DNA from: Amphirosellinia nigrospora
Lineage: Eukaryota > Ascomycota > Sordariomycetes > Xylariales > Xylariaceae
NCBI GenBank assembly: GCA_004123355.1
Contig: SCHM01000006.1
Location: 868,001-932,000 of the forward strand
DNA length: 64,000 nt
Reading direction: 5' to 3'
Below the pieces are notes generated by a model. That model was not told where the DNA came from. It did no database searches and was given only the letters and a program-made list of their open reading frames with translations. Every line of letters starts with the position of its first letter. The stretch's first letter is position 1. Of this stretch, positions 15,746 through 57,178 are shown piece after piece. The position numbers and the translations under genes were made by a program.

Positions 15746-16600
15746 ATGAGGGCAGAACAAGTCTCAGCAAGTTCAAGCTTCGAGTTTCTTGACTACCGAC
15801 ACGGGGTAAAATCTCCATTTACTGAAGATCATGGTTTACGCGTCACGAATAATGCTTTCTGGAGCTACTGCGGCCCCTCCTCACAGATAGCGACGACCTA
15901 CCGCCGAATTTCCACGAATGGACCTCTGCTGCCTTATCGAGTTCCCTACTCACGAAGTTGATGCCCTTCCTGGAATTCGTCAACGAGACCCTCAGAAAAC
16001 ATGAGCTTGACCACTACTGGTTGACGATTCGCGCCACGAAGGCGACGAGCGAATTCGACAAGCCCCGGTGGCACACGGACGACGTTTTTTTCAGTGCCCG
16101 CGGTGGAGGACTGAGAGCGATACCGCGCGAAGATGACGGCGACAGGCAGTTGGACCTACAAACGGACTGGAAGCTTTGTACTACGTTGCTAGGCCCTCGA
16201 CTATGTTCATCCCTACCGAGCGCCAAGCCGAAGCACGTAAGACGCAGCGGGATACGAGGAAAAGCCTAGCGACGGACCATGACTGCACTTCCATTCGCTG
16301 TATTGCATGCGCCGCCACATCCGATGCCGTTAGAGAGAAGCTCGCGACTCAATTGAAGCCTATGGGCACGATGCAGGCCACCCCAGGCGAGTGCGTGTTC
16401 TTCCGTATCGGCCAGGAGAGGGTGCAGTCCATTCGGAGCCTTGTATGAGTGGTGGCGATCGGATTTTCATTAATGTTGTACCCGGCAGAAAAGACGAGCT
16501 CAAAAATTTGATGACCAAATGGGGAATGAGTTTCCCAAGGTCATGGTGGCTTGCGCCAAACGTCTCCAGGGGTCGTGAGACTAGTTTATGGAAATACTGA
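15746..16600 (+). CDS. Putative 2-oxoglutarate/Fe(II) oxygenase-like protein
   Basis: Protein of about 285 aa from ATG 15746 (MRAEQVSASSSFEFLDYR) to the TGA at 16598. It is read in four frames, each step minus one (near 15855, 16195 and 16415), with coherent sequence on both sides of every step, so one gene with missing bases. Two motifs stand out: RWHTDDVFF near 16065-16090 (an HxD pair) and AVHSEPCMSGGDRIFINVV near 16421-16475, where Arg lies ten residues after His (HX10R). In this order they match the iron ligands and 2-oxoglutarate anchor of the double-stranded beta-helix oxygenases. Between them lies a Cys/Ala-rich insert (CTSIRCIACAATSDAV). I cannot name the family. It ends 470 bp from the O-methyltransferase and may belong to the same pathway, which is inference. 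Confidence 0.6.
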
Positions 16601-17070
16601 CCACGCACCCTCAGAGTCACTGGACGCGCATTCTGCTTATCCTCATTGATTTGGTTACATCTCGGCCAGTTTTTGGATATAAATTGCCATCATACTCCTC
16701 TGTATTCAATGTATTCTGATGAGGCTTACCAAGCCGTTCTCACACATATATATCGCCGCCGCCTCGAGTCGGACCCAAAGCACAGTATACGCATTATGAT
16801 TATTTTGACGTCAACTATAGTCCGAATGGTATCATTATTCGAAGTCACAACTTGTAAGGAAATGAGGAGTTGTCGTTAAGTATAGATACCATGGCTTACG
16901 TCATAGTCTGGGCAATCAACACAGAAGTTCAGGGGTCATGGCAACGCCGTTGACCCTATCACCATTACAGTTGTAGTCATATCGATATCTGTTATCGGTC
17001 CCTCAGCACAGCTCTATATGTATCTCTCGTTTGCCTCCCAAATCGCGTATAGCAAAAGACAATCCAGCTG

Positions 17071-18083
17071 TTACCTCCCAAAGAACTGCGAGGACCCTGT
17101 TACGCTCCTATGTTTTTTATCTGATGTTACCTCATTTTCAATAGCTACACATCGTGTCACCTCAACCGCATCCTGGCCAAAATTAGCCCACGTTGGAAGA
17201 CAAAGGAAACGTGAACGTACAAGCGCACCACTCGGTTCCAGCCTTCAACAAGCCGGCTTTCGTATACCAGATTTGGATTGCCTCTCAGCCCCGACTTAGC
17301 CATTAGCGCGGCATCTCCTCTCTTCTTCCCAACGGAACTTCTGACATATTCGAGGTATGGCGGGTTTCCTGGGTTGATGACTAAAAACAACTGCGCATGA
17401 GCGGACGGAGCGAATAGAATTATTGCGACTCACCATTGTCTGCAGCCAATATGGTGTCGATGCTAATTAATCCAAGTTCTTCGCAGAGCTTTAGGTCATC
17501 GGTATATAACGGCTTGTGGTGATCCAGAAAGAGTAGATCAATCTGTAGCAAAATACCATCTGCATGCAACTGCCTCAGTGAGTCAGAGCTTGAACCAGAA
17601 ATAACCTGGACAACATCGCCGAGTCCTGCTAGGTCGACAAGCTGTGTGATGACTTTTCCAAACTCGTTGTGTTTCTCTAGGCTGTAATAAACGGCACCTC
17701 CCCCTCCCGTAGTGCCGTGGCAAACGCAATCGCCGAATAGCCAACATACCCGCCGAGCTCGACCATCACCTGGGGCTTCCGGGCCTTGATCAGGTCCACG
17801 ACAGTCTTGGACTTGAACTCGCCAATGTTCATCAGATATTTTTGGGTGCGGCCGAACTCGTCAATCGCATCAAGAACTTTTTGCGGGTTCCCTTTGAATT
17901 GGTCTACATCGGGATGACCGAGGACGAATTGTAAGAGCTCGAGCTCACGGCCATCGTCAAACTACCAGAGATTTCGGTTAGAATTACAATTGATATTGGA
18001 TGCAATTATGTCGTACTGACATACACGTCTTCCTTTGGCAGATACGTCACTCCTTGAAATGACTCTCCCAGTGAGGCTTCCAT
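17071..18083 (-). CDS. Catechol-type O-methyltransferase of mycosporine cluster
   Basis: SAM-dependent O-methyltransferase, COMT family. Exons (minus): 18083-18021, 17961-17434, 17380-17229 and 17172-17071; the last intron is less certain and a read-through version is possible. The SAM-binding glycine loop is MVELGGYVGYSAIAFA, metal-binding acidic residues lie in LLFLDHHKPLYTDD and AADNVINPGNPPYLEY, and the C-terminus carries DAVEVTRC, all typical of fungal COMT-like enzymes. One base is missing in the G-rich stretch near 17698-17706 (ATALR to GGGGAVYYSLEKHN). It is transcribed divergently from the cyclase gene over a 777-bp shared promoter. In mycosporine synthesis this enzyme would methylate desmethyl-4-deoxygadusol to 4-deoxygadusol. 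The role rests on neighbours plus family. Confidence 0.9.
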
Positions 18084-18860
18084 AACTCACAGGGTGGTTA
18101 TGTGCAAAATCAGGTATCTTTCGGTCGGCAAACAATTAATCTTGTATAAATCGAAATAAGCAATAGTTTTCATATTTCATATTCAAAGAACACTCTTAAG
18201 GTAGTTGTCATAGTATTATGATCTCACTTTTATCTCAGTCAGCGCTGGGAACGTCATGTGTCATCGTTGGGATACGCCACTTTTAAACTTTCCCGCTAGG
18301 CTAGCTTGGTTGTTTTCGCCTCCTTGTCCCTTATTATCGTGGCGAAGAGAGTACGGATCGGGAAATACCAGGTTATGGCATTTCGATAGATTCGATCCAA
18401 AATCTCGATCTGTGTAATGCTATGATTCCCCAATCGCCGGCTAGATCCGTGTCTCAAATACCCCTCTGACGTGAAAGAGAGAAATGTTTGATGAGTCAGC
18501 GGCTGCTTCTGATCGAATACTTTAACATCTAGGCCCGGTTCCGTTGAGACACAGAATTTCTTCCGTAGATCGGGAATTCGGAGTCAAGTGGAATTGGTTT
18601 CGGAACATGCCAATTGAATGCTCTCTTGGCAGTCATACCGCCAACCTCGTCGAAAGATGTCACGGTGTTGGCGAGCTGGTCACGACGGCATGCGTTTTAC
18701 AAAACCGATGTCTTTTAATGGCGACCAGCCGACAAAATTCGCATCTTATCCATGCTCGATAAATTAGAACCCATCTTCTTGATTAGCACGGGGTGATCTC
18801 TACCTCATTTGCAAATCGATCGTTCATTTCAAGCCTGCGCGCCCTCTTTATACCCTCACT
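18084..18860. promoter_or_regulatory. Shared divergent promoter of O-methyltransferase and cyclase
   Basis: A 777-bp gap between the divergent ATGs at 18083 (minus) and 18861 (plus), the expected site of common control for the pair. A TATA-like CTTTATACCC lies about 15 bases before the cyclase ATG. I see no motif that I can assign to a named regulator. Confidence 0.55.
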
Positions 18861-20566
18861 ATGTCGGATCTCAAAGCAAAGATCCGTGAGACCAAAACCG
18901 GCTTCCATGTCGAAGGTTATGAGAAGATTGAATATGACTTCGCCTTTGTGGACGGCGTCTTTGACATCGCCAATCCCGACCTGGCAAACTGCTACAAGAA
19001 ATGGGGTAGAGTTCTTGCCGTAACAGACAAAAATGTCTACGCCCTGTATGGCCGAAAGATGGAAGAGTACTTTAAACACTTCGATTTAGCCTTGAAAGTC
19101 CACCAGACCTCAATTGGAGAGAAGGCAAAGACGGTCGAAACATTCCTGAGTATCTGCGACTCGATGACTGATTTTGGTATCATTCGAAAGGCAAGCGTCT
19201 TTTTCTCTGTCGCCGCCTAAGGCTTTATATTCTAACTTTCAATAAGGAACCCGTACTCGTTGTTGGAGGGGTCTGGTTACTGATGTAGCTGGGTATGTCA
19301 TGCCTTTTATTCAGTGTCAAGCCCATGATGGCGACTTACATCGACCATTAGATTTGCCTGTGCTGCCTACCGTCGCAACACGAACTTCATTCGGGTCCCA
19401 ACTACAGTTATTGGCCTCATTGACGCGAGCGTCAGCATCAAGGTGGCTGTAAACTACGGCCACTATAAGAACCGGCTAGGAGCGTACCATGCCCCTTACA
19501 CACCTTTCTCGACTTCGGTTTTCTACGGACCCTTCCCATTTCCCAAGTTCGCAATGGGTTTGCAGAACTGATCAAGATATCTTCGTGCGCTCATTTGGAA
19601 GTGTTTAACCTACTTGACAAGTACTGCGAACAGTTGATCCAAACCAAATTTGGACGCAATGAGGGATCTTCGACAGAGATTCGTAAAGCTGCAGACATCG
19701 TTAGCTTCCTCCGATTTCCAGTTGATTTACTACCTACTGACATTGAGTAAGATCAATCGTGAGGGTATTTACGAGATGCTGAAGCTTGAAACCCCAACCT
19801 ACACGAGATTGGGCTTGATCGAGTCATTGCGTATGGTCACACGTGAGTTTCTGGATGCACACCTGCTAACCCACAACTCTAACTCGTTTTAATTCACAGA
19901 TGGTCGCCGTTACATGAATTAGTACCCGAGACGCCTCTCCGGCACGGCCACGCTATCTCAATCGACATGGCGTATTCTGCCACGTTGGCGAACCAACGTA
20001 GTCTACTTTCGGATGACGAACACCGTCGCCTTCTAAACCTATTCTCAATGGCAGGGCTCTCTATCGACCACCCACAATTTGACGAGCAAGTACTCGAGAA
20101 AGGCACTGCTGCCATCTTGAAGACCCGGGACGGGCTGCTACGTCTGGCTGTTCCAAGCCCACTCGGGTCCTGCACATTTATCAATGACGCCGGGCTGCAA
20201 GAGCTGAAAGAAGCTCTGCGCAAGCATAAACTATTAGCCAAGGCGTATCCTCGTGAGGGCGCAGGGATCGAGGCATACGTAGATAGTAGTGACACCGGGT
20301 ACACGGACTTGGCCGCCGAGAATATGAGCATCAACAAAACTTTGAAGATGGCAGGGGTAAAGAGGCCTATCGGCATTCAGGATGGAAATACCAAGACTAA
20401 GATTGCCCGCAAGGGTCTCGTCGATGGGCATTGCGGGGATGGCCCAGTAGCCCTATCAACAGCACCAGCGATGGAATCAAGGCTCAGGCTTAAAGCATTT
20501 GTTGAGAACGTGGGCGTCTCAAGGGTATGGAATCGTAAGATTACGCAAGCCTCTAGATATTCGTAG
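18861..20566 (+). CDS. Desmethyl-4-deoxygadusol synthase-type sugar-phosphate cyclase
   Basis: Member of the dehydroquinate-synthase-like sugar-phosphate cyclases that turns sedoheptulose 7-phosphate into the gadusol core. Exons 18861-19190, 19247-19292, 19352-19699, 19752-19842 and 19900-20566. The first intron has GC-AG ends, the others GT-AG. The NAD-binding stretch reads EPVLVVGGG...[17 protein letters not shown]. The active-site region [40 protein letters not shown] is split here over two motifs: [11 protein letters not shown], where dehydroquinate synthases have SSVGGKTAVN, and [10 protein letters not shown]. The IKVAVN form points to the DDGS class. The metal-binding histidines lie in YGHTWSPLHE and [11 protein letters not shown]. 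One base is missing near 19267, 19507 and 19795. The C-terminal tail after SDTGYTD is unconserved. Strong call for the superfamily, good for the class. Confidence 0.92.
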
Positions 20567-21105
20567 GTACATTAATTTACCATCAAAGCCTGAAAATGTC
20601 TCGGATTCCGGAGATAAGTAGCCGTGATATTTCCACCTCATTCCCAAATTCAACTAGAACGTGTTACTGACCATGTGCTCTGTGATGCAACCTCTCCGAT
20701 TTTCCACTCCATCCCATTCCAATTACTGATCAGTTGCAAATAATTCATCATATTTGGTATGTCAAATTTAAACGCGCAGCAGGTAGTGGTAAGGCCTTCA
20801 ATATACGGATCCAGAGCACATATCATCCGTAACCGCCATGATTCTCTAAAATTGATGTCTCTAAAATTGGTATGGCCTCAATTACCAGACGTTGGTGATA
20901 ATCAACGTCCATTCTACCCTCTGATTGTCCTGCCAACGACAGCATGCTAACAGTCTGTAAGTTTTGAGGCTTGAGGGGGCTATATCACAAAATGTAGTCG
21001 TCGCAAGAATTTTTTTTAGTTTTACAAACCTACATTATAACACACTCGCAGTACAATAGCCTTTACCATCACCCCTACGTATATCTTGCCATATATGTAG
21101 TACCC
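20567..21105. other. Intergenic region of the mycosporine block
   Basis: 539 bp between cyclase and ATP-grasp genes, both on the plus strand. It holds the presumed ATP-grasp promoter, with an A/T-rich stretch at 21009-21050. No coding frame is supported. Confidence 0.5.
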
Positions 21106-22632
21106 ATGTCAATGAAGGAAATGGCCACTCGTAATGACGCGGCCAGGTGCTTCGGCCTGGTTTTTTAAGTCTCTTCGTCTCTCCAGTATCCCTTGTCGTC
21201 CTCTGTTTCGCTACGCTGAAGCATGCTATTACGTCAAGATTCAGGTCGCCACAACATACTTTTCAAAATGGCGCGCGACGAACTATCCTCGTTACGGGGG
21301 TCGGGATGGCGAAAGGGCTGACGTTGGCTCGAGCGTTTCATCTTTCTGGACATCGCGTTATAGGCGCCGACTTCGAAGACGGCGTTATCCCTGTTCAGGC
21401 CGGTTTTCGAAAAGTCTATCGCGTTTCCACAGGCTTCCGAGGCCGTGCAGCCCTAGCCAGTCTAAGGCGTACACTAAAACTCTGGTGCAGATAATCAAGG
21501 ACGAAAGGATCGATCTTTGGGTGTCGTGTTCAGGTGTCGCAACCACGATCGAGGATGCGCAAGCTAAGGAGGCTATCGAAGAGCGCACTTCCTGCAAATG
21601 CATACAATTCGATACCGCCACTACATCAATGCTGCATGAGAAAAACACGTTTATGCGCGTGTGTGCGGAACGGCAGCTCCCAATCCCTGATACCCACGAG
21701 GTCACGTCCCGAGATGAGGTACTGCTCATCCTCTCCTCTTCGGCAGTAATGTACCCTGGAAGAAAATACATCCTCAAACCTGTCGGCATGGACGACGTGA
21801 ACCGGGGGGACATGACGCTTCTGCCCCTCTCTACTTACCGCACGACCTGGGAGCATGTTTCCCGGCTTTACATCACAAACTCAACCCCCTGGATTCTGCA
21901 GCAATTCATCCCGGTGGCGAGGAATATTGCACGCATGCTCTCATCGTGCGTGGGAAGCTGAAATGCTTCATTGCGTGTCCCAGTTCTGAAATGCTGATGC
22001 ATTACGCGCCCCTTCCGCCAGATGGTGCGCTCTGGCGCGCAATGCGGGACTTCACCGTTGGGTTCCTAGAACGCTCCCCGGACGCTAGCAGTATGACCGG
22101 ACATTTAAGTTTCGACTTCATGGTGGATTCCGGCGTTACGAGAGAAAAGGCGGAAGGCCTTGGAAAGAGTATCTATGCGATTGAGTGTAACCCCCGCGCA
22201 CACACGGCCGTGGTCTTGTTTGGACAGGAGGGCCCAGAGATGGAGGATATGGTCCGGGCCTACCTATCCGCAATTGAGAGGCCTACCAAGGCAGTCTACG
22301 AGCAGATAGCAGCAAGAGGAGAGATCTTGGTTACGCCATCTGCCGCTCTCCGGCCTCGATATTGGCTCGGGCACGACCTGGTCTCCCTTGTTATCCAACC
22401 ACTCCTCCGTCTAGGTGAGAAATCAATAGGGTGCAGAGAAGTCTCGAAGTCGAGCACGATTTTTCTAAGGCATCTAATGAGCTGGAAAGAGGGAAGCTTT
22501 GAGACATGGGATCCTTTGCCGGCTCTCATTCTCTATCATGTATGTTGGCCCCTGACTATACTACTGGCTTGGTGGCGAGGACGACGCTGGAGTAGGATTA
22601 ATGTCAGCACCACCAAGGTGTTCACTTATTAA
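21106..22632 (+). CDS. ATP-grasp ligase, MysC-like, membrane-anchored
   Basis: ATP-grasp enzyme expected to join an amino acid to 4-deoxygadusol, giving mycosporine-glycine or a related mycosporine. A single exon of about 508 aa from ATG 21106 (MSMKEMATRND). An N-terminal membrane helix (SPVSLVVLCFATLKHA) precedes the preATP-grasp Rossmann-like start ILVTGVGMAKGLTLARAFHLSGH. The ATP-grasp core shows LWVSCSGVATTIEDAQ, KYILKPVGMDDVNRGDM (ATP lysine), LSFDFMVD and ECNPRAHTAV (Mg ligands Glu and Asn). A second hydrophobic stretch, LILYHVCWPLTILLAWW, lies near the C-terminus. Three one-base losses shift the frame (near 21165, 21390 and 21912), each minus one. It follows the cyclase in the same direction. 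Family firm; substrate inferred from context. Confidence 0.9.
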
Positions 22633-23999: not shown

Positions 24000-25679
24000 A
24001 TGGCTAGCCATCCGAACGAGTTCCACTCAACTTTCGGCTTCGGAGAGCCAGCCCACGATAGCGAAGACCCAGAGACTCCGTCACAGCTTCCTCCTTCGAT
24101 AACGACGAGAGGGAGGTTTGCCAGGTATGTTTTGCCGAGAACCACCGCTTCCTCACGGCGCTTCGACCCTGCGGCCATATCTGGTGTATTGAGTGCCTTG
24201 AACATCTGCTTCAGCAAGCAATCGCCAACGACCGCCTGCCAGCAACCTGTTGTGCGCCTATCGCAATAGACGACTTCGATTTCAGGTTAGACGACGAACT
24301 GCTTAGGACATATCGCTCCAGTTTAGCAGGGTCAGAAACACTCCGAACCCTACTTCTGCCATCGTCGCGAGTGCGGTGCTCGCATCCCACTGCGACAAAT
24401 CACCAACGGAATCGGCGTTTGCTCAGAATGCAATAGCAGGACTTGTGAAAAATGCAAAGAAGCCGCGCATAGTGAGCATAGTGGGGAGTGTCCAGTGGAT
24501 GAAGGCATCGAGGAGGTTCTAAGACTTGCTCGCCGGGAAGGGTGGTCAAGATGTCCCTCCTGTCGCATTGTAGTCGAGCTGAGGGATGGGTGTCCACACA
24601 TCACGTAAGTCAGGCTCATGTCCAGCCAAGAAGAATAAAGCGGCCGGTAGCGGCTAACTTCTCGCAGTTGCAGATGTGGTACTGAGTTCTGCTATCATCG
24701 CGGATCTGAGCGGCATAGCTGCCATGGCTTGTGCGTCGTGTCAGAAGCTCCCCTCGTGCCCCAGCACCCGAAGAGATGGATGCCGCGCAACACGCCGCGC
24801 TTCGCACCTTGGCACGCGAACTCGAAGGAGCCAGAGTTGATGTGGTTGCAGCAGCTAGAACCATCACGGCAATCAGAGACCAGGAAGCCGAGGAAGACAG
24901 AGCCAGGATTCCCGGAGCCCAAGCAGCCCAAACAGCCCAGGCAGCCCAGGCATCCAGAGGCAGAACCGGGGAAGCCGAGGCACGAATGGCGTTACATCAA
25001 GCGGCCGCGAATGGCGGCCGAGCCCAGAGGGTCGGGCTGCTAGCCCAAAGGGGCGCCCAGCTGCTAGCCCAAAGAGGCGCCCAGATGCTAGCCCAGAGAA
25101 ACAGGCCGGATCCTAATCCTAATCCACCCGGAACCCATGGAAACGGCATGTGCCTGGGTGCGGCCGGAGGTCAGAATAACGAGGCTCAACTCGGCGCCGT
25201 CAGAAACCAGGAACACGCCGCTTACTATATTGGTGCACTGCAGGGAGCCGATGACTGGGCACTGGAAGCCATATACAACCAACCCGGAATGCTTCCTCTC
25301 GGAGCGCCCCTTAACATACCAGAGCCCAGGAACATGTAGCGCTCCTGTCCCTCAATTCGACAACCACCACATCGCTCAGCCTACAGCTTGGCCTCCGGTG
25401 CAACCCTTCATGCACGCTATGGTGCAACCTCTAATGTACCCTGTAGCGCCAGCACAAGCTATATTCCAACTCGATGCATACGCAGCAATGAGAGCCCAAC
25501 AAATTAAAGCAAATCTAAGGGACATCGCGCAACGAAACGGATGCATTCACACACATGCCATTGTTCAACCCGACGAGCATCAGTGCCAGGGATGCAATTA
25601 CCGCGTAACGGACTACATAGTCGAGTGTCAACATTGCCATGTTAGATTATGTCGACGCTGCCGATCCGGTGGCTGGTAA
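24000..25679 (+). CDS. RBR/IBR zinc-finger protein (putative E3 ubiquitin ligase)
   Basis: Fungal RING-IBR-type protein. The start is ATG 24000 (MASHPNEFHSTFGFGEP). A RING-like part reads VCQVCFAENHRFLTALRPCGHIWC, split as CQVCFAE and RPCGHIWCIECLEHLL. The IBR part reads FCHRRECGARIPL, GVCSECNSRTCEKCKEAAH, then GWSRCPSCRIVVELRDGCPHIT, an intron of about 65 bp from 24605, and CRCGTEFCYHRGSERHSC. A long Ala/Arg/Gln-rich middle carries a 24-bp tandem repeat (LLAQRGAQ units). The C-terminus ends CQGCNYRV...ECQHCHVRLCRRCR, a zinc motif common to the ends of such fungal proteins. The frame steps near 24110, 24325, 24725 and 25335. E3 activity is inferred from the family; a cysteine for RBR thioester catalysis is not clear to me. 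Confidence 0.75.
25037..25100 (+). repeat. 24-bp tandem repeat inside the RBR gene
   Basis: Two nearly identical 24-bp units (25037-25060 and 25061-25084, one mismatch) and a partial third unit encode repeated LLAQRGAQ octapeptides. Just upstream, at about 24920-24950, shorter CAGCCCA(A/G) 9-bp units encode a Gln/Ala run. Confidence 0.9.

Positions 25680-54915: not shown

Positions 54916-57178
<2,263 letters not shown>

Follow-up and report, generated by a model that had tools for sequence, protein, structure and literature searches.

A linked set of O-methyltransferase, cyclase and ATP-grasp ligase genes in Amphirosellinia nigrospora is very probably a fungal mycosporine cluster

The window studied here is a stretch of 64,000 nucleotides from the fungus Amphirosellinia nigrospora (contig SCHM01000006.1, positions 868,001 to 932,000), whose genome assembly comprises 48.1 Mb in 11 contigs; AROM, SEY1 and introns make up the recognisably fungal content of the window and genome. 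Within positions 17157-22632 of the window we found three linked genes, encoding an O-methyltransferase (OMT), a cyclase of the desmethyl-4-deoxygadusol synthase (DDGS) class and an ATP-grasp ligase (Table 1). An earlier interpretation made from the letters alone, hereafter the sequence-only reading, had seen in them the three core genes of mycosporine synthesis; each was recovered roughly where that reading had put it, and with the same identity. Models of the cyclase and ATP-grasp genes were built by frameshift-aware alignment to Nostoc proteins, with introns limited to GT/GC-AG. Frame breaks in the cyclase and ATP-grasp genes were taken from these alignments, and those in the OMT gene, at the ATP-grasp N-terminus and in the gene to the left of the cluster were located by eye.

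Table 1. Features of the putative mycosporine locus, in window coordinates
Feature	Position	Strand	Basis and remarks
Left neighbour, no assigned family	15747..16600	+	Partial open frames, three between 15853 and 16600
COMT-type (catechol O-methyltransferase-type) OMT	17157..18083	-	About 3 exons by eye; profile and PDB matches
OMT-DDGS intergenic region	18084..18860	.	777 bp, divergent genes; gene coordinates
DDGS	18861..20566	+	Alignment, tree, site residues
ATP-grasp ligase (MysC/ATPG type)	21106..22632	+	Alignment to Nostoc MysC, NF005315

The sequence of the cyclase places it firmly in the DDGS class. It is 55% identical to Nostoc MysA over 398 matched codons (aligned from 18861 to 20293), along a path with three frame breaks and four modelled introns (19191-19246, 19293-19351, 19700-19751 and 19843-19899), whose borders are model output because the aligner permitted GT/GC-AG only. 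The first of these introns is of the GC-AG type. The frame continues past the alignment to a stop at 20566. About 91 codons (20294-20566) thus follow the last position aligned to bacterial DDGS; in Phaffia rhodozyma, too, DDGS exceeds Nostoc MysA in length (477 aa according to PMC10057719, against 409 aa). The motif IKVAVN is present, and so is a second motif of 10 residues named by the sequence-only reading. With the frame breaks read through, its scores against PDB sequences were 479 bits for 5tpr, 233 bits for 4p53 (ValA, a known 2-epi-5-epi-valiolone synthase, EEVS) and 107 bits for the best dehydroquinate synthase (DHQS). In a signature stretch of the Phaffia enzyme that is quoted in PMC10057719, and that its authors treat as a mark of DDGS, 23 of 30 letters match the window cyclase when counted by hand. 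A search of the genome for PF01761 yielded the window cyclase and AROM and no other gene.

The position of the cyclase among its relatives was assessed on a tree. Scanning contigs with a single cyclase query returned no relative; scanning them with a two-row alignment returned 65 loci, and viral contigs scanned with the two-row alignment held no relative. The tree comprised 71 rows: the window cyclase, 62 of the 66 bacterial DDGS loci, four plasmid cyclases of sedoheptulose 7-phosphate (S7P) and four DHQS-type sequences; four short or broken loci (L145, L146, L148 and L154) and the host AROM were left out. A grouping with DHQS or EEVS, which would speak against the DDGS call of the sequence-only reading, was looked for in this tree, and the cyclase fell inside the DDGS clade, apart from both, with a branch support of 100/100. 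A site counted as discriminating when one residue was common to at least 95% of the 62 bacterial DDGS and a different one was shared by three plasmid S7P cyclases. The window protein carries the DDGS residue at 17 of the 19 and the EEVS residue at none, the contrast being with just three S7P cyclases (L032-L034) taken as EEVS-type. In the contrast with three DHQS, 18 of 22 of its sites carry the DDGS residue, and it keeps 107 of the 121 positions invariant in the 62 bacterial DDGS, two of the 14 misses being X at frame breaks. Identity to MysA, tree, discriminating sites and PDB scores all agree with the earlier call. The nearest branch was that of a Calothrix group (support 90/83); because this support is weaker and the cyclase's own branch is long, its exact origin can be placed only tentatively. 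The DDGS loci of this group (L091, L092, L093, L097 and L144) showed neither a MysB-type OMT nor an ATP-grasp match in flanks of up to 7 kb on each side, the left flank of L144 being cut, and the genes flanking L091 look like nif/hes genes.

The ATP-grasp gene aligned to residues 70-458 of Nostoc MysC from 21279 to 22620, with 35% identity over 382 codons, two frame breaks in the alignment and one more seen by eye near the N-terminus. The two introns placed in it are probably alignment gaps, since they are located in open frame. Against NF005315 the protein scored 153.5 bits, under the curated cut-off of 406 bits (Nostoc MysC scored 560 bits), and it had no Pfam match. The MysC alignment and the NF005315 score uphold the ATP-grasp enzyme proposed by the sequence-only reading, with a span that is reasonable. 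The gene also had a match in 52 of the 66 bacterial DDGS loci, and no second copy was found in the A. nigrospora genome. A hydrophobic stretch noticed by eye near the N-terminus (21138-21240) has a similar counterpart near the start of Nostoc MysC and is possibly a membrane anchor.

The OMT gene starts at 18083 on the minus strand, as first proposed; its end was shifted from 17071 to about 17157, where the last open frame stops, and one frame break was seen by eye. A read-through translation with X at breaks was used for the profile search and matched Methyltransf_3 of Pfam (E = 1.9e-10). The best PDB match was 5zy5, 'probable catechol O-methyltransferase 1' (136 bits), and other COMTs scored 104-114 bits, so that the COMT type assigned beforehand holds. 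This closest solved relative, which we take to be COMT1 of S. pombe, differs in its presumed substrate, the window OMT lying in a mycosporine cluster. The resemblance to bacterial mycosporine OMTs is more distant: Nostoc MysB scored 33.9 bits, and 29 of the 66 mys loci gave a match, with a top score of 50.8 bits, although these are BLAST bits and those for COMT are phmmer bits, which are not strictly comparable. Among class I OMTs, COMT was closer than MysB. Nostoc MysB, for its part, scored higher with other bacterial and caffeoyl-CoA-type OMTs (125 bits) than with the best COMT (38.5 bits). Because the fungal OMT is distant from MysB and MysB prefers other OMT types, the two are probably not orthologues. 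No second copy of the OMT was found in the genome. A COMT-like OMT in a fungal mycosporine cluster is not new, having already been listed for other fungi: surveys of Naganishia, one of which cites Phaffia, count a catechol O-methyltransferase among the mycosporine genes (PMC12204325, PMC8875396).

The three enzymes are the same as those of the MYC cluster (DDGS-OMT-ATPG) of Phaffia rhodozyma described in PMC10057719. According to this source, every step of the three-gene pathway is supported by deletion mutants, by expression in S. cerevisiae and by introducing the cluster into a non-producer, and a gene set with divergent DDGS and OMT genes was genetically shown to make mycosporine-glutaminol. 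As far as the Phaffia locus is described there, both clusters have divergent DDGS and OMT genes with introns. The Phaffia cluster has no gene for a nonribosomal peptide synthetase (NRPS) or a MysD-type enzyme, and in the window none was found within the searches given below. The gap between the divergent genes is 1568 bp in Phaffia and 777 bp in the window, where it may be a two-way promoter. The layouts differ in the place of ATPG, which in the window lies downstream of DDGS on the same strand and in Phaffia beyond OMT on the strand of OMT, and, unlike Phaffia, the window has an unassigned gene beyond OMT (PMC10057719). Since the same gene set has been genetically shown to make mycosporine-glutaminol in Phaffia, the cluster is of a known kind. 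On the strength of its sequence we consider the locus to be very probably a mycosporine cluster of the fungal type OMT-DDGS-ATPG, which adds another case of a system already known from Phaffia.

The order of reactions and the class of the product were inferred from the genetics of Phaffia. DDGS would convert S7P to desmethyl-4-deoxygadusol, and the OMT would methylate this compound to 4-deoxygadusol, to which the ATP-grasp enzyme would then attach an amino acid or an amino alcohol. In the window, a search with Nostoc MysD revealed no MysD-like gene (best E = 0.96), and there was no D-Ala ligase domain, the eight Dala_Dala_lig_C matches all lying elsewhere in the genome. No AMP-binding domain was matched in the window either, this domain having been scored in 14 of 135 genome candidates only. 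Within this scope, the three negative results agree with a mono-substituted mycosporine as product, the product favoured by the sequence-only reading, which had seen no NRPS-like or D-Ala-D-Ala-ligase-like gene following the three.

A bacterial set for comparison (L031:9001-16868) lies on a Nostoc sp. HK-01 plasmid that was typed as mobilizable. It comprises genes that we take to be mysA, mysB, mysC and mysD, accompanied by an MFS transporter gene and, on the other strand, a PhyH gene. The window shares with it the DDGS and the ATP-grasp enzyme, at the 55% and 35% identity given above, and differs in that its OMT is nearer to COMT than to MysB, that no mysD match is present and that the left gene has no PhyH match.

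The state of the genes in the assembly weighs against a working mycosporine cluster. Every cluster gene is broken, none of them forming one open frame even with introns allowed for. The two alignable genes (cyclase and ATP-grasp) contain 5 breaks in 780 codons, or 6.4 per 1000, a density above the mean of 2.5 per 1000 in conserved control genes (10 breaks in 4030 codons, in six of eight genes). The one-sided p value for this excess was 0.08 with the eight controls, 0.05 without ATP2 and 0.03 when three distant unbroken controls (L074, L076 and L077) were added to the eight. A gene served as a control when it was 45% or more identical to its reference. Dropped for a distant reference (24-34%) were HSP70 L074, then L076, L077, L078 (with two references) and L079 against atpD, and the Cpn60 genes L080-L087 against groL; these showed no break save one in L086, in alignments that were mostly partial. 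L090 was also left out.

Such breaks could be real frameshifts, gathered in this strain since the cluster was functional, and loss of the whole cluster at strain level is described for Phaffia (PMC5103461, PMC10057719). We nevertheless regard decay as unlikely. The conserved controls are broken likewise, and ATP2 (ATP synthase beta, 55239-57154 in the window), which is one of them, is just as dense in breaks, with 3 in 446 codons (6.7 per 1000). AROM is also broken, by eye, outside the part counted among the controls, and CCT-type genes compared with two intact paralogues showed breaks in five of eight cases. Of the two joins in SEY1, another window gene, the 5ca8 alignment spans the first and does not cover the second. 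Moreover, the cyclase keeps most of the DDGS-invariant positions (107 of 121), and, frame breaks and modelled introns apart, the aligned paths of the cyclase and ATP-grasp genes are free of stop codons. Because six of the eight controls are broken as well, indel errors of the assembly are the likeliest origin of the frame breaks. As ATP2 and several HSP70, HSP60 and CCT genes are affected, gene calls made from open frames in this genome should be treated with caution.

To the right of the cluster lies a gene with an IBR zinc-finger match (24327-24605, E = 1.5e-5). To the left, beyond the OMT, lies the gene in which the sequence-only reading had seen a possible oxygenase. Its open frames do exist, with two frame breaks by eye, but no oxygenase family was matched, and the sole basis for this assignment is a pattern recognised by eye, namely H-x-D (RWHTDD), H (GAVHSEP) and R ten residues on (DRIF), which would suit an Fe/2-oxoglutarate (2OG) oxygenase. 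The best Pfam matches had E values of 0.065-0.15, below cut-offs and none of them an oxygenase, and PhyH was not matched even with an E limit of 1. NCBIfam gave nothing with the same limit, nor did PDB sequences with a limit of 10; there was one chance match in plasmids (E = 9), and no relative in the 66 bacterial DDGS loci or in viral contigs; in its own genome the gene matched itself only. The first piece of 138 aa was modelled with a mean pLDDT of 51.6, and Foldseek with this low-confidence model as query found no similar structure with an E limit of 0.001. A codon-usage test gave -0.12 to 0.09 for the left pieces and -0.22 to 0.20 for known cluster exons, against an out-of-frame null with a mean of -0.09 (standard deviation 0.15, n = 32); it did not single out the left gene as coding, and it failed for the known genes too. 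It had been trained on nine frames, of which those of L010 and L053 are much shorter than the respective genes and so may have been read on the wrong strand.

The left neighbour is a candidate member of the cluster, and its function as an oxygenase is conjectural. In cyanobacterial clusters for mycosporine-like amino acids, the PhyH-type 2OG oxygenase MysH acts on mycosporine. A dedicated tailoring oxygenase with a MysH-like role would add to the mycosporine cluster proposed here. The left neighbour adjoins the cluster, resembles MysH in its position near the core genes and in its possible oxygenase residues, and the Nostoc plasmid likewise has a PhyH gene beside mysABC. It differs from MysH in the missing PhyH match, and the searches yielded neither a family match nor a usable fold match, nor a relative in the bacterial loci; nor did codon usage, in a test that also failed for known genes, pick it out. 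On balance such a role is quite improbable. That the gene founds an undescribed fungal oxygenase family tailoring mycosporines, a counterpart of MysH arisen separately from PhyH, is a long shot, and yet this is the part of the locus that could prove new. Finally, a cyclase yielding another C7-cyclitol (EEVS-type, or of the 2-epi-valiolone synthase type), so that the cluster product would not be a mycosporine, has next to no probability: all such cyclases belong to one superfamily and the matching NCBIfam models are mostly aroB-like, every one under its curated cut-off, but no discriminating site is EEVS-like, the tree places the enzyme in the DDGS clade, and an OMT and a MysC-type ligase are linked to it.

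The A. nigrospora locus thus provides one further fungal genome with a probable mycosporine cluster, from which a UV-B sunscreen is predicted, and it shows a COMT-like rather than a MysB-like methyltransferase. If the left neighbour were indeed a tailoring enzyme, it could help to explain how fungi vary their mycosporines.

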